A stretch of 38,071 nucleotides of DNA from Gemmatimonadota bacterium. Its GTDB lineage: Bacteria > Gemmatimonadota > Gemmatimonadetes > JACCXV01 > JAHWKZ01. The DNA lies in contig JAICNR010000007.1 of assembly GCA_025931135.1 (NCBI GenBank), forward strand, positions 1-38,071. Direction: 5' to 3'. The number at the start of each line of letters is the position of its first letter. Position 1 is the stretch's first letter. The position numbers and the translations under genes are program-made. Shown here one piece after another: positions 6,122 through 20,376 of this stretch. A model generated the notes under the pieces. It was not told the origin of the DNA and made no database searches. It saw nothing but the letters and a program-made list of their open reading frames with translations.

Positions 6122-6275
6122 GGACGTTCAAGATGGCTCAGCACCCACCTTCGGTGAGTACCCGAGGCGCCCGACGAGGCCGGGTACTCGCCGCAGGTGG
6201 GTGCGAGGCGTGGTGAATCCACGTCGCAGGAAGAACGAGGAGGGCAACGCCACAGATGAGCCGTTTTCAACGTCC
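6122..6275. repeat. Structured intergenic element, copy 1
   Basis: It fills most of the gap between the DUF4321 gene and the polyprenyl synthase gene. Outer arms 6122-6140 and 6257-6275 are complementary at 16 of 19 positions, and two of the three exceptions become G-U pairs in a plus-strand RNA. Inside, 6141-6204 forms a hairpin of about 23 pairs (GCACCCACCT with AGGTGGGTGC, then GAGTACCC with GGGTACTC). A smaller hairpin follows at 6209-6223 (CGTGG with CCACG). Ordered blocks GAGGCG, CGCAGG, CGAGGA and GCAACG (6205-6249) recur in copy 2 at 18591-18707. No protein-coding frame is credible. It may be a structured RNA, a 3'-end element or a palindromic mobile repeat. Confidence 0.75.
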
Positions 6276-6281
6276 CGATCA

Positions 6282-7295
6282 CTACCGGTCGCGAGCCAGG
6301 ACGTAGTCCACCGCCGCGTCGAGCACCTCGCGGGCGGGAGTCTCGGGAAGCAGGGTGAGGGCCTCACGGGCCCGGTCGGCGTATTCCGCTGCGATGCGGC
6401 GGGTGGCTTCGATCCCCCCGCGCTCGTGCACGAGCTCCACGACCCGCTCGATCGCAGCCTGACTCGCACCGCTATCCCCGCGGAAGACCTCGTGCACGGC
6501 GTGGCGCTCCACGGGGGAAAGCCGCGGAAGCACCGCAAGCAGGGGGAAGGTCGCCTGCCCCTCCTTGAGATCGGACCCCGCTGGCTTCCCCATCACAGAC
6601 TGCTCTCCGCCGTAGTCCATCAGATCGTCGACGAGCTGGAACGCCATCCCCAGACGGTGCCCATATGCAGCCAGCATGTCCCGGTGCCGGGGGGCGCCGA
6701 TCACCGCGCCCATCTCGCAAGCGGTGGCGACCAGGCTCGCGGTCTTCTTCTCGATCAGATAGAAGTACTGGGCGGGGTCTTCGACGAGCTTCCGGTGATG
6801 GGCGATCTCGACCATTTCTCCGATCGTGAGATCATTCGTCACTCTGGCGGCGAGCGCGATCAACTCCAGGTCCCCGAGACGTGTGATCTCGGACATCGCC
6901 CGGGAGTAGAGATAGTCCCCCATGATGACCGATACCTTGTGATCCCACTTGCTGTTCAGCGTCGGCATGCCGCGCCGTAGCGCGGACTCATCAATCGTGT
7001 CGTCATGCACAAGCGAAGCCAGGTGGATGATCTCGATCACGGATCCCAGCGAGATCTCGCGCTCGTCGGGATCCTCTTCGATCCGGTTGCAGAGCGAGAG
7101 CAAAACCGGGCGGAAGAGCTTGCCGCGCATCTGCTGGAGGTGGAACGAGATCTCGTTGATGAAGGGGACGTCTGCCTCGAGCACTCGGCTCATGTGCGCG
7201 ATCACGCCGTCGAGCACGTCGTGGACCAGCCCCTGGATCGTGGCCAGGGAGGGCGTCCTGCGTTCGATCTCTCCTGGGGCGGCGCCGGCCTTCAT
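6282..7295 (-). CDS. Polyprenyl diphosphate synthase (trans-isoprenyl diphosphate synthase)
   Basis: 337 residues, the normal length. The first Asp-rich motif is HDDTIDES (about 96) and the second is QLVDDLMDYGG (about 218); GKLFRP near residue 57 is the diphosphate-binding segment. The enzyme condenses isopentenyl diphosphate onto an allylic diphosphate in all-trans configuration. Residues before the first motif are bulky (IIHLASLV), which fits medium or long chains such as the quinone side chain, as in IspB/HepT. Product length cannot be fixed by eye. It begins with ATG, follows the PHP gene by 12 bases and ends 6 bases before the structured element, so it probably shares a transcript with the PHP gene. 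Confidence 0.92.
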   Translation of the reverse strand: MKAGAAPGEIERRTPSLATIQGLVHDVLDGVIAHMSRVLEADVPFINEISFHLQQMRGKLFRPVLLSLCNRIEEDPDEREISLGSVIEIIHLASLVHDDTIDESALRRGMPTLNSKWDHKVSVIMGDYLYSRAMSEITRLGDLELIALAARVTNDLTIGEMVEIAHHRKLVEDPAQYFYLIEKKTASLVATACEMGAVIGAPRHRDMLAAYGHRLGMAFQLVDDLMDYGGEQSVMGKPAGSDLKEGQATFPLLAVLPRLSPVERHAVHEVFRGDSGASQAAIERVVELVHERGGIEATRRIAAEYADRAREALTLLPETPAREVLDAAVDYVLARDR

Positions 7296-14356: not shown

Positions 14357-16399
14357 TCAGTCGGGGGGGCTGACGAGCGTTCCCTGAACCACGCACAGTC
14401 CGCCCAGGGCGCTGAAGCTGAAGCTCCCTTCGAAACCGGTCGCCGGGCTCCCCGGTCCGTTCCCGAACGCGAACTGCTGCGTGATATTCCCCGATGCCGT
14501 GATCGTGGGCGGGTCCGTTCCCGTCTCCAGGACGATCGGACCGTCGAAGATCGCGAGGCCCGAGGGTGACAAGGACGCCACAGGGTCGTCCTGCACGTTC
14601 GGAATGAGGGCGCTGATCCCGAGGGTGGCGCTCTGGGGAGCGCTCTGCGTCACGATCATGTCGCGGATCTGCGACTCTCCCGGCCCCAGCCCCAGCACGC
14701 CCTGACACACGGAGCTGATGAACGTCAGGGTGAAATCCGTCGAATAGGTGCCGCCGACGACCGGAAACGCGGTCACCGTGACCTCAGCCTCGGCAGTCTT
14801 CCCGCCGTCCGTCACCGAAACGGAGACCCCGTAGTCTCCGGGCACGTCCGCGGTGAACGTCGCCTGGGTCTCGTCTCCGCTCAGGACCAGCGAGGCGGCG
14901 CTCCCGTCCGGCGCGTCCAGCGTCCACGTCAGCTCGAGCGGATCACCGTCCGCGTCGGTGAACGCCGCCGTCGCGGTCACGCTGGCCCCCGCCATGACCT
15001 GGGCGCCCCCCGCGATCGTGAGCGTCCCCACGGGCGGATGGTTGAACGGACCGACCGTGAGGGTGGCCGTGTCGGTGGATGTGAACTCTCCGTCGCTGAC
15101 CTCGAGCTGGACCACGTACACCCCTTCGAGACCCGGCGTCAGGCTCGCGGTCGCGCCGGTTGCCCCGACGATCGACACCGTAGATCCCGTCGGTGCGGAG
15201 AGGATGCTCCATGAGAACGTGAGTTCGTCGCCGTCGGGATCGAACGAAGCCGACCCGTCGAGCGTCATGGGGATCGTCTCGGTCCCGTTCAGGTCGAAGC
15301 CCGCGTTCGCCACCGGCGCTCGGTTCATGCCCGGAGCTGTGGCGGTGATCGTGACCTCGTCGACCGCCTGACCGCCGCGCCCGTCGTTGACGGTTACGCG
15401 CAGGACGTAGGCTCCAGCGACGTCGGGAGTGATGGCGACCGCGGGCGTGGTCGTGGCGCTGAGGACCGCCGTGCTTCCGGCCGGGCGACTCTGCACGACC
15501 CACGCGTACGTGAGCGCATCCGCGTCCGGATCCGTGGCCGTCGCGGTAACGTTCGCCGTGCCGCCCAGCGTGATCGATTGATCGATCCCGGCGTCCACCG
15601 AAGGTGCCTGGTTCGCCGCCGCGACCGTGACGCGCACCGTGTCGCGCGCGGCGAGCTCTCCGTCCGAGACGGTGAGCTCGAATTCGTACACCCCCGCAAC
15701 CGTGGGCGTGAACGTCGCTAGCGCCGTTCCGGCTCCCGTCAGGGAGACCGTCACGCCGCTCGGCGAGGACAGGGTCCGCCATTCGAACGCCAGGGGATCG
15801 CCGTCGGGGTCCGTCGACCCTCCTCCCTGGAGCGTGACGGCCGTGCCGGCGTTCGCATTCTGATCCACGCCCGCGTTCGCGTCCGGGGCCTGGTTCGGAG
15901 GCGGACCGTCGTCCTCGACCGCCGCCGCGATGACCGTGAAGTGCGTGACGAAGCCGCGTACGGTGATCCCGGAAGCCGCGATGTCGACGGTGATCCCGGT
16001 GAGCTCATCGAGTCCGGTCGACGTCGTGGCCAGGAGGGTCAGGTCCGTCGGGTCCACTCCCGCGAGAGCGGAGTTGGGCACGAAGACGAACACTTCGACC
16101 GGCAGCTGAAACTGCTGGCCCTCGGGCGTGAACCGATAGGCTTGTCCGATCGCCCCCGCGGCCTGGAGCGCCGCAGGCATGGCGACCGCCGTGACCGTGA
16201 TCGTGACGTTTCCGGACAGCGCGCCTGCGGGGACCGTGACCCCGGCCAAAGTCTGCAGGCGGACGGTTCCACCCGCGACACCGAGGGTACCCGAACCGTC
16301 GTCCCCGCCGGGCCCGATGGGGCCGCCTCCGCCGTCGCCACAGGCGACCGCGAGGCCGAGAGCGAGAACCGCCGTGGAACCGAAGAGACTATGACGCAT
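14357..16399 (-). CDS. Multi-PKD-domain lipoprotein
   Basis: About 680 residues from ATG 16399, which has AGAGGG eight bases upstream (a GTG at 16408 is less likely). The signal peptide ends in a lipobox (LAVAC, Cys20), then a Gly/Asp linker. About 40-165 is a beta-rich ZU5-like region ([20 protein letters not shown]). Four PKD-type Ig folds follow, each opening with [27 protein letters not shown] or NHPPVGT and containing DPDGDPL-like turns. The last 130 or so residues (from [12 protein letters not shown]) form a separate domain that resembles the whole mature part of the next lipoprotein upstream, including two Cys. It is likely anchored to the outer membrane and surface or periplasm exposed. 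Ligand unknown. Confidence 0.87.
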
Positions 16400-16504
16400 C
16401 GGAAGCACCCTCTGGGGGATGGAAATGGAAGACGCGGGGACTCGTACGCGGCCAACCTTAAGATGACCCCCGCTCCCCGGAGCGTCAACGCCGCTGTCCG
16501 GCCC

Positions 16505-18116: not shown

Positions 18117-18506
18117 TCAGCGGTCCGGACGGACGGCAACCGCGTCGATCTCGATCCGCGCACCTTTGGGCAGCGCGGCGGCCTCCACGGTGGAGCGCGC
18201 CGGGAACGGCTCTTCCAGGACCTCGGCGTACACTGCGTTGAATGCCGCGAAATCCGACATGTCCGCCAGGAACACGGTCGTCTTGACGACGTCCTTCCAG
18301 CCTGCGCCAGCAGCCTCCAGGACCGATGCGATGTTGCGAAGCGCCTGGAGCGTCTGCGCCTCGATTCCTTCCGGCAGCTGTCCGCTCCGTGGATCCCCGC
18401 CGAGCTGACCCGCCGTGAATACGAGGTTCCCGGTTACGATCGCCTGGCTGTACGGGCCCAGCGCCGGTGGCGCCGCGTCCGTCCGAATCGCCTCCCTGTG
18501 ATGCAT
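18117..18506 (-). CDS. ridA: RidA family reactive-intermediate deaminase
   Basis: 129 residues, full length. RidA proteins are trimers that hydrolyse reactive enamine/imine intermediates released by PLP enzymes. Visible hallmarks are GPYSQAI, FTAGQLGGDP, the substrate-binding Arg in PARSTVE and the Glu in ARIEIDAVAV. The ATG has GAGAGGAGC four bases upstream. It is followed by selD after 19 bases and may be its operon partner. Upstream lies structured element copy 2. Family assignment is clear; which amino acid pathway it protects is not. Confidence 0.94.
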   Translation of the reverse strand: MHHREAIRTDAAPPALGPYSQAIVTGNLVFTAGQLGGDPRSGQLPEGIEAQTLQALRNIASVLEAAGAGWKDVVKTTVFLADMSDFAAFNAVYAEVLEEPFPARSTVEAAALPKGARIEIDAVAVRPDR

Positions 18507-18590: not shown

Positions 18591-18707
18591 GGGCGTTCAA
18601 AATGGTCGATATCGAGGCGCGCGACCGAGGAGGGCCGAGGCGCACGTGTTGGTGCGCCGCAGGCCGGCCGAGGAAGCGCAACGAAGAGATCGGCCATTTC
18701 AACGCCC
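18591..18707. repeat. Structured intergenic element, copy 2
   Basis: Located between the stop of the formate-THF ligase gene (1 base away) and ridA. Arms GGGCGTTCAAAATGGTCGAT.. (18591-18613) and ..CGGCCATTTCAACGCCC (18686-18707) are complementary except for one bulge, a C-C and an A-G mismatch and one U-G pair (plus-strand RNA). A central hairpin GGCGCAC/GTGCGCC lies at 18639-18658. Blocks GAGGCG (18637), CGCAGG (18658), CGAGGA (18669) and GCAACG (18678) match copy 1 in order and nearly in spacing. Short frames through it would be miscalled as proteins. Confidence 0.75.
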
Positions 18708-18708
18708 C

Positions 18709-20376
18709 TTAGAAAAGCCCGTGGACGGTGCCGTCGGGGTCTACTCTCATCCCCTCCGCCGCGGGCTTCTTCGGCAAACCCGGCATCGTCATGATGTCGC
18801 CCGTCAGGACGACGAGGAAGCCCGCCCCGGCAGAGGGCCGGACCTGATTCACGGTGACGTGGAAGCCGCGCGGACGACCGAGTCGTGCGGGGTCGTCGGA
18901 TAGCGAGTACTGGGTCTTCGCGATGCATACCGGAAGTGTCCCGAGGCCGATCTGCTCCAGGCGCTCGATGTCCCGCTCCGCGGGGCGCGTGTACTCGACC
19001 CCATCCGCCCCGTATACTTCGCGGGCGATGGTGGCGATTTTATCGCGGATCGCCATCTCCAGGGGATACAGGAAGCGGAAGCTCCCCGGGGACATCGCTT
19101 CAGCCGTGGAGATCACGCGATCCGCGAGCTCGAGACCTCCTGCTCCCCCCTCTGCGTGAACGCGTGCCCGTGCGACCGCCACCCCCCGCTCTTCGCAGAA
19201 CGTCTCGATCCTCCGGAGCTCTACCTCCGCGTCGCCTGCGAACTCGTTGAGGGCGACGATCGGGCTCATGCCGAAGCGTGACAGGATGTCCAGGTGCGCT
19301 GCCAGGTTCGGGAGCCCGCGCTCGAGCGCCTCAGGGTTGGGGGCCTGCACTCCGCGCCGGGACGCCCCGCCGTTGTACTTGAGCGCACGGGCCGTGGCCA
19401 CGACCACGGCGGCCGACGGCTCGAGACCACCGTATCGGCACTTGATGTCGAAGAACTTCTCTGCGCCGAGGTCGGTGCCGAATCCCGCCTCGGTCACGCA
19501 ATACTCTCCCGTCGCTAGCCCCATCCGGGTGGCGAGCAGCGAGTTGCACCCGTGAGCGATGTTCGCGAACGGGCCACCATGCACGAAGGCGGCGCCGCCC
19601 TCGAGCGTCTGCACGAGGTTCGGCTCGATCGCCTTCCGGAGCAGCAGTGTCATCGCACCCTGCGCCTCCAGGTCGCTGGCGCGCACCGGGTCGTCCGCGT
19701 ACGTGTATCCAACCACGATCTGCGACAGCCGCCGCTCGAGGTCCTCGATCCCCTCGGCGAGGCAGAGGATCGCCATGACCTCGCTGGCGACCGTGATCTG
19801 GAACCCGTCCTCGCGCGGAACTCCCTGGGCCTTGCCGCCGAGGCCGACCACGATATTCCGCAGGGCCCGATCATTCATGTCCAGGACTCGCTTCCAGAGG
19901 ACCTGACGCGGATCGATCCCCAGCGCGTTGCCGTGGTGCAGATGGTTGTCGAGCAACGCCGCGAGCAGGTTCGTGGCCGCGCCGACGGCGTGGATGTCGC
20001 CGGTGAAGTGAAGATTGATCTCCTCCATCGGCAACACTTGCGACCATCCGCCCCCCGCCGCACCACCCTTGATTCCCATGCACGGGCCCAGCGAGGGCTC
20101 GCGCAGGCACAGCACCGCGCGCTTGCCGCGCCGGACGAGCGCCTGCGCAAGCCCGACCGAGACCGTCGACTTTCCTTCGCCCGCCGGGGTCGGGCTGATG
20201 CCGCTGACGAGCACGAGCCTTCCTCGGGACGCGCGGCGGTCCAGCGCCGCAAGGCGCACCTTCGCCATGTGCCGCCCGTATGGCTCGATCTCCGCGGCCT
20301 CCAGACCAAGGTCGCCGGCGATGTCCGCGATCGGACGCAGCTCGACGGATCGGGCGATCTCGATGTCGCTCTTCAT
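18709..20376 (-). CDS. fhs: Formate--tetrahydrofolate ligase
   Basis: 555 residues, normal length. It forms 10-formyl-THF from formate, THF and ATP. The ATP site TPAGEGKST (about 65-73) is intact, and LREPSLGPCMGIKGGAAGGG and FANIAHGCNS are family signatures; the C-terminus (GFLVVLTGDIMTMPGLPKKP) is also typical. It supplies or drains the C1 pool used by the methylene-THF reductase fusion and MetH in this window. Whether it works in formate assimilation, purine synthesis or a Wood-Ljungdahl-like route cannot be told. The ribosome site is weak (GGAA directly before the ATG). It is preceded by 237 bases without a gene and followed at once by structured element copy 2. Confidence 0.97.
   Translation of the reverse strand: MKSDIEIARSVELRPIADIAGDLGLEAAEIEPYGRHMAKVRLAALDRRASRGRLVLVSGISPTPAGEGKSTVSVGLAQALVRRGKRAVLCLREPSLGPCMGIKGGAAGGGWSQVLPMEEINLHFTGDIHAVGAATNLLAALLDNHLHHGNALGIDPRQVLWKRVLDMNDRALRNIVVGLGGKAQGVPREDGFQITVASEVMAILCLAEGIEDLERRLSQIVVGYTYADDPVRASDLEAQGAMTLLLRKAIEPNLVQTLEGGAAFVHGGPFANIAHGCNSLLATRMGLATGEYCVTEAGFGTDLGAEKFFDIKCRYGGLEPSAAVVVATARALKYNGGASRRGVQAPNPEALERGLPNLAAHLDILSRFGMSPIVALNEFAGDAEVELRRIETFCEERGVAVARARVHAEGGAGGLELADRVISTAEAMSPGSFRFLYPLEMAIRDKIATIAREVYGADGVEYTRPAERDIERLEQIGLGTLPVCIAKTQYSLSDDPARLGRPRGFHVTVNQVRPSAGAGFLVVLTGDIMTMPGLPKKPAAEGMRVDPDGTVHGLF

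Follow-up and report, generated by a model that had tools for sequence, protein, structure and literature searches.

Folded palindromic repeats of about 120 bases that abut stop codons in Gemmatimonadota and other bacteria

Introduction

What are the two similar imperfect palindromes that lie some twelve kilobases apart in a 38,071-nucleotide stretch of a Gemmatimonadota genome (assembly GCA_025931135.1, contig JAICNR010000007.1; this whole stretch is hereafter called the window)? An earlier note, made from the sequence alone, saw in them either a new structured RNA or a family of palindromic repeats. Here we describe how many copies exist, what is conserved in them, where they lie relative to genes, and whether they move.

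Results

The two copies of the window

Copy 2 carries the arms and the ordered blocks GAGGCG, CGCAGG, CGAGGA and GCAACG that the earlier note had ascribed to it at 18591-18707, and the C.C mismatch described as common to both copies is present in each and recurs in further copies. The additional hairpin in the left half of copy 1 is likewise there, at 6141-6204. Each copy lies at the 3' end of a minus-strand gene, as had been reported; these genes encode a polyprenyl diphosphate synthase-like protein (copy 1) and formate-tetrahydrofolate ligase (copy 2), and copy 2 sits between fhs and ridA, inside an apparent operon (Table 1). Beyond what had been noticed, the element abuts, or itself supplies, the stop codon of the upstream gene. 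The plus strand of copy 2 folds at -71.4 kcal/mol versus -48.0 kcal/mol for shuffled sequences (z = -6.1; 0 of 200 shuffles), its minus strand gives z = -5.4 (0 of 200 shuffles), and copy 1 gives z = -5.2 versus shuffles. Elsewhere in the window, a minus-strand gene at 14357-16408 has internal DNA repeats 570 nt apart; its product contains tandem-95 repeats and in part resembles myxosortase/rhombosortase-dependent M36 peptidases.

Table 1. Positions, within the window, of the two palindromic elements and the genes beside them
Feature	Positions	Strand	Remarks
Copy 1, whole palindromic element with nested hairpin	~6122..6275	-	Arms CGTTCAAGATGG (6125-6136) and CCGTTTTCAACG (6261-6272)
Copy 1, nested hairpin module (GCACCCACC...GGTGGGTGC)	6141..6204		Kind seen only in copies of its own genome
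Polyprenyl diphosphate synthase-like gene	6282..7295	-	Gene end adjoins copy 1
RidA-family gene	18117..18506	-	Next co-directional gene past copy 2
Copy 2, whole palindromic element	18591..18707	- (strand of the upstream gene fhs)	The + strand is GA-rich and folds more stably
Copy 2, gene-distal outer arm (GGGCGTTCAAAATGGTCGAT)	18591..18610		Pairs with 18689-18707; C18598 opposite C18700; basis: fold and helix covariation
Copy 2, inner hairpin GGCGCAC/GTGCGCC	18639..18658		Flanked by a GA/GCA asymmetric internal loop
Copy 2, outer arm on the gene side	18689..18707		The fhs stop codon (TAA at 18709-18711, minus strand) lies 1 nt away
Formate-tetrahydrofolate ligase gene (fhs)	18709..20376	-	Stop codon abuts copy 2

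Copy number and host range

A DNA search of the MAG to which the window belongs (G000; 2.43 Mb in 249 contigs, 81% complete) returned significant matches in at least 15 places. A covariance model built from 11 copies (R1) matched about 40 copies in it after removal of antisense echoes. Thus, the resemblance of the two window copies is not due to chance. This search of the genome and its relatives, which the earlier note had proposed, revealed further copies in related genomes: 68 matches (about 65 copies) in the congener G001, 24 in G003, 5 in G002 and 57 in G028, a distant Gemmatimonas MAG of the same class. Most of the 41 genomes searched with R1 had no match. An exact core pattern also matched MAGs labelled by their depositors as Deltaproteobacteria, Bdellovibrionales and Rokubacteria, which contain 1 to 69 R1 matches each, and in the class of one of these MAGs, G041, 45 of 63 genomes are carriers, often with 20-50 matches. 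The distribution is patchy: some genomes, spread over several bacterial phyla, have tens of copies each.

The elements matched none of the 4227 Rfam families at either gathering or permissive thresholds, so that the absence of a named family, suspected at the outset, held up in this comparison; the scan yielded only a tRNA nearby and, outside the elements, one weak match to a CRISPR repeat. The family was not found in plasmids and phages by blastn, nor in viral contigs by one exact pattern, which other subtypes may escape. We conclude that these are members of an unnamed family of folded DNA repeats of about 120 bases, which has no Rfam entry and which may have been noticed in part before, in Geobacter (see below).

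Conserved structure

The repeat unit is about 117-130 bp long and its ends read GGNCGNTGA or CAGGCTGCTGA. Read with the gene, it consists of outer arms of the form X-TGA-Y ... Y'-TGA-X', a conserved core and an inner hairpin. In an alignment of the copies of G000 and G001 (113 rows, in which some copies recur as antisense echoes), 95.6% of the cells are paired, and two-sided changes occur at 32 of the 36 pairs, in 545 cells versus 134 in shuffles (0 of 500). The covariation that the earlier note had seen between two copies is thus real. Other MAGs gave 207 two-sided changes versus 56 in shuffles, and G041 alone (43 copies) gave 97 versus 19; in both cases none of 500 shuffles reached the observed value. 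These alignments were fitted to the model; the first model was built on a MAFFT alignment, in which two-sided changes were already present at 21 of the 36 pairs. Sliding the pairing partner destroyed the signal. Across phyla, the G.G/C.C mismatch within the arm TGA is kept, as are the internal loops GA/GA and GA/GCA; the pairs that flank them vary.

Tests of the strand gave discordant results. The ratio of G.U to A.C was 87:27 on the model-fitted alignment, and was also skewed on A3 and A4; it was 66:67 on a model-free alignment of the arms, and about 46:17 on a structure-blind alignment (a tally of true pairs), where three columns drove it. Fold energy favours the strand antisense to the gene in 77 of 95 copies when computed as RNA and in 88 of 95 as DNA, which we do not take as proof of the strand. 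Of the two forms first proposed, the palindromic repeat family stands; an RNA as the functional form is still conjectural, given the conflict among these strand tests and the orthologous presence and absence described below.

Some copies carry additions. One is a nested ACCCACC..GGTGGGT module, which without exception lies within or next to elements and is confined to the genome of the window (6141-6204 in the window; L109, L110, L111, L112, L114, L116 and L117); 561 kb of the congener contained none. It thus appears to be a lineage-specific addition to the repeat, and the proposal that a hairpin module can multiply holds in outline only. In G041 (L257-L296), many copies share a conserved tail past the right arm (ATTTTGAGTTTTTCA..., or CGCGAGTATATTAGTTT), which suggests a possibly longer unit in this genome. 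G041 and G047 also contain a second arm subtype (GCGTCATAAC ... GTTCTGACGC), which has the same type of core and coexists with the first (L279, L294, L312).

Placement at stop codons

Gene calls from a simple codon-usage gene finder, with offsets measured from the start of the model, bear out the association with 3' ends of genes that the earlier note had suggested testing, and show that it holds in one orientation. In G000 and G001, 80 of 102 copies had the stop codon of a same-orientation upstream gene within -7 to +11 nt of the element, versus 2 of 102 for the mirrored end and 4.7% of random intergenic positions (Fisher p about 4e-33). Offsets of -1/0 and of +11 are the most frequent. The position +11 is that of the arm's own TGA, which is the actual stop codon of the upstream gene in 15-17 copies. 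Genes ending just before an element in these two genomes over-use TAG (26 of 52 versus a background of 24%, p about 1e-4). In other lineages 28 of 36 copies had such a stop at the end of an open frame of at least 80 codons. A looser test in G041 gave 31 of 43, versus 12 of 43 for the mirrored end; there, TAA or TAG precedes the arm in 8 of the 12 copies that have no upstream ORF, so that in this genome the element itself appears to include the leading stop codon. About 20% of copies are exceptions to this placement, and more in G041 (12 of 43). Two elements directly follow the 3' end of a tRNA gene, one in the genome of the window (L092, 4795-4922) and one in G025 (L067). The downstream gene is co-directional at the rate of the genome background (62:33 versus 564:246), often within 60 nt, which indicates that elements also lie within apparent operons.

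Gain and loss at orthologous sites

Among the orthologous sites compared between G000 and G001, 19 are filled in both genomes, including those of both window copies (matches L127 and L158), and about seven are filled in one genome only. Sites filled in one genome and empty in relatives indicate that elements are gained and lost, and favour a mobile DNA repeat over a fixed RNA gene. In three comparisons of a filled with an empty site (L139/L093, L134/L096, L143/L100), the last residues of the gene differ, and its stop codon lies at the edge of the element or in the arm. About 29 relatives were compared at one intergenic site of G041: in most of them the site is a short gap that contains no element; single relatives have an independent copy in another orientation, a copy of a different subtype, or a palindrome made of arms only. 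At one of the sites filled in G000 or G001 only (L121, about 6733-6789, versus L087, 10161-10284), all that the congener retains is a small hairpin that shares the TGAAAA...TTTTGA arms but lacks the conserved core.

Copies within a genome are up to 91% identical although their flanks are unrelated, and orthologous copies average 73% identity. Between genomes, element DNA can be up to 90% identical where the flanking gene is 70-76% identical; judged from these identities, horizontal exchange or strong constraint would fit. One region (L105, 6267-6394, versus L126, 10006-10133) is 99% identical between two species, other orthologues being 70-90% identical; the right half of its element is identical and the left arm different. 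Horizontal transfer, an exchange of arms between copies or a binning artefact could each account for this.

No flanking direct repeats of 2-9 nt, as left by target-site duplication, were found beyond chance in G041, and G000/G001 gave only a weak 2-nt signal. The Y1_Tnp domain (PF01797) was not detected in the genome of the window or in G001, G003, G025 and G041, carriers of 68-69 matches among them; it is present in some other carriers and in non-carriers, with no clear relation to copy number. The position after a stop codon had also brought integron attC sites to mind. We rejected this idea, as the boxes RYYYAAC ... GTTRRRY were present at the ends of 0 of 102 elements and an integron integrase search of five carriers gave no match over the cut-off. 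In view of the missing duplications, the failure to detect Y1_Tnp in rich carriers and the absence of integrase and attC boxes, the standard labels of REP/RAYT, MITE and attC do not fit.

Discussion

The elements are mobile or formerly mobile palindromes that conserve their structure and are gained at gene ends in one orientation, often giving the gene its stop codon. We consider it probable, with some reserve, that they form an ERIC/REP-like mobile repeat family of about 117-130 bp whose copies become the 3'-UTR hairpin of a host gene and often supply its stop codon.

Their position at gene 3' ends could also lead one to see a cis-acting RNA under selection, either a transcription terminator or an mRNA 3'-end element, in which A4-5 and T4-5 tracts around the GC-rich Y stem would make a bidirectional intrinsic terminator. 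The longest T run near the 3' arm is indeed four in 62 of the 102 G000/G001 copies and five in 39 of the 43 G041 copies, the 19 sites filled in both congeners show 99 two-sided pair changes, and the two copies behind tRNA genes would suit such a role. However, a terminator scan of both window copies found no terminator, the A/T tract is lost in Rokubacteria copies and in some Gemmatimonadota copies, and a downstream gene that is co-directional at the background rate, often within 60 nt, is not what a terminator predicts. With filled and empty sites and patchy presence also speaking against it, we regard this explanation as unlikely. The covariation itself might have arisen without selection on the fold, either because copies recombine or because DNA template switching corrects imperfect palindromes (quasipalindrome correction). 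Orthologous copies show 99 two-sided changes versus one-sided changes of which 26 kept and 55 broke the pair, the left arm of L105 seems to have been exchanged, and the model-free arm alignment has no G.U excess, all of which would agree with such a process; but correction of this kind would erase the C.C mismatch and the GA/GA and GA/GCA loops, which persist across phyla, and it thus seems quite unlikely as the source of the covariation.

As to how the repeats spread, a MITE moved, like ERIC, RUP and Correia elements in earlier proposals, by a DDE transposase of the IS630 type with TA duplication would account for their size, for the terminal inverted repeats that they possess and for their multicopy intergenic distribution; the leading TA(R) at the left end in G041 and the TAG excess in G000/G001 also point that way. 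Yet the arms covary instead of staying conserved, the orientation relative to genes is strongly biased, and no direct repeats exceed chance in G041, with only the weak 2-nt signal in G000/G001. A MITE with TA duplication is therefore not supported, and we think a MITE origin very doubtful. A REP/BIME family mobilised by RAYT, a Y1 HUH transposase, would explain a palindrome with a conserved strand-asymmetric mismatch that is extragenic, close to stop codons and free of duplications. REPs measure 20-40 bp, however, and the elements here about 120 bp. We reject the RAYT idea for the richest carriers, where Y1_Tnp was not detected, and hold it to be highly improbable overall.

Returning to a mobile palindromic family, we infer that it would spread by a mechanism without target-site duplication that recognises the folded structure and not a fixed end sequence, since the arm sequences vary while the pairing and a defined mismatch stay. 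Copies that land at the last codons of a gene would survive because the gene-facing end carries stops, generally the TGA of the arm and in some lineages a leading TAR/TGA; the mRNA would then end in a long hairpin right behind the stop codon. Less certainly, a hairpin at most 15 nt from the stop codon might alter ribosome release, protect the 3' end of the mRNA, or both, and retained copies might thereby tune the expression of the upstream gene, by analogy with E. coli, where REPs located up to 15 nt past a stop codon cause ribosomes to stall (PMC12306157). Three points do not sit easily with this picture. The exceptions to the placement, about 20% of copies and more in G041, are one. The 19 sites filled in both congeners count against active mobility; they suggest that some of the elements are old and stable, and these could have been retained as regulatory elements. 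In addition, if insertion were random and copies simply survived where they did no harm, intergenic copies in both orientations should be common; they are not seen, so that this does not explain the tight adjacency to stop codons. A bolder proposal is the following: a cross-phylum class of self-spreading folded repeats would be placed at stop codons in fixed orientation by duplication-free, structure-recognising machinery (acting on single-stranded DNA or mediated by RNA), with ends that carry the stop codon so that insertion yields a standard 3'-UTR hairpin. For the present we treat it as speculation that is probably wrong.

Interspersed palindromes are known in bacteria. The chief finding here is the placement of the family, in one orientation and with near-stop-codon precision; the family is also absent from Rfam and present in several phyla, and shows no target duplication and, in several of its richest carriers, no REP transposase. 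Its hundreds of natural copies offer material for asking how a repeat finds, or is kept at, stop codons, and a test bed for whether hairpins directly behind stop codons tune expression in bacteria beyond E. coli. A curated model would annotate many blank intergenic regions in Gemmatimonadota and Deltaproteobacteria MAGs.

Comparison with known systems

As a whole the family behaves like ERIC, REP and NEMIS elements. Compared by description, it resembles the ERIC (IRU/RU-1) of enterobacteria, an imperfect palindrome of about 127 bp that is multicopy, intergenic and able to form a long stem-loop (PMC2229807); the family described here also consists of imperfect palindromes of that size in many intergenic copies, but no TA duplication was found in it, and it adjoins stop codons tightly in one orientation and lives in other phyla. 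The Correia/NEMIS elements of Neisseria and YPAL of Yersinia, which are 100-170 bp long, palindromic, multicopy and transcribed with neighbouring genes (PMC2229807), share the palindromic, multicopy character; they have target-site duplications, whereas we found none here. With the REP/BIME of E. coli the family shares an extragenic palindromic nature and nearness to stop codons, although REPs are short units with GTAG/CGTC tags and a RAYT. Like attC sites, the elements are imperfect palindromes just past a stop codon with one strand folding better; unlike them, they have no R boxes and are dispersed singly, not arranged in cassette arrays. Finally, short RNA elements were predicted in 2009 in Geobacter metallireducens (the Gmet_R1005 family); that report describes 24 copies, one of them between co-transcribed genes, and mentions the family in Desulfotalea as well (PMC2700814). 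Its central palindrome GRCGTAGCGCTGCTACGCC, the only part compared, resembles the core GGCGTAG...CTACGCC of the G041 copies. Judged by this resemblance, the Gmet_R1005 family may be a relative of the family described here, or may well be identical with it.
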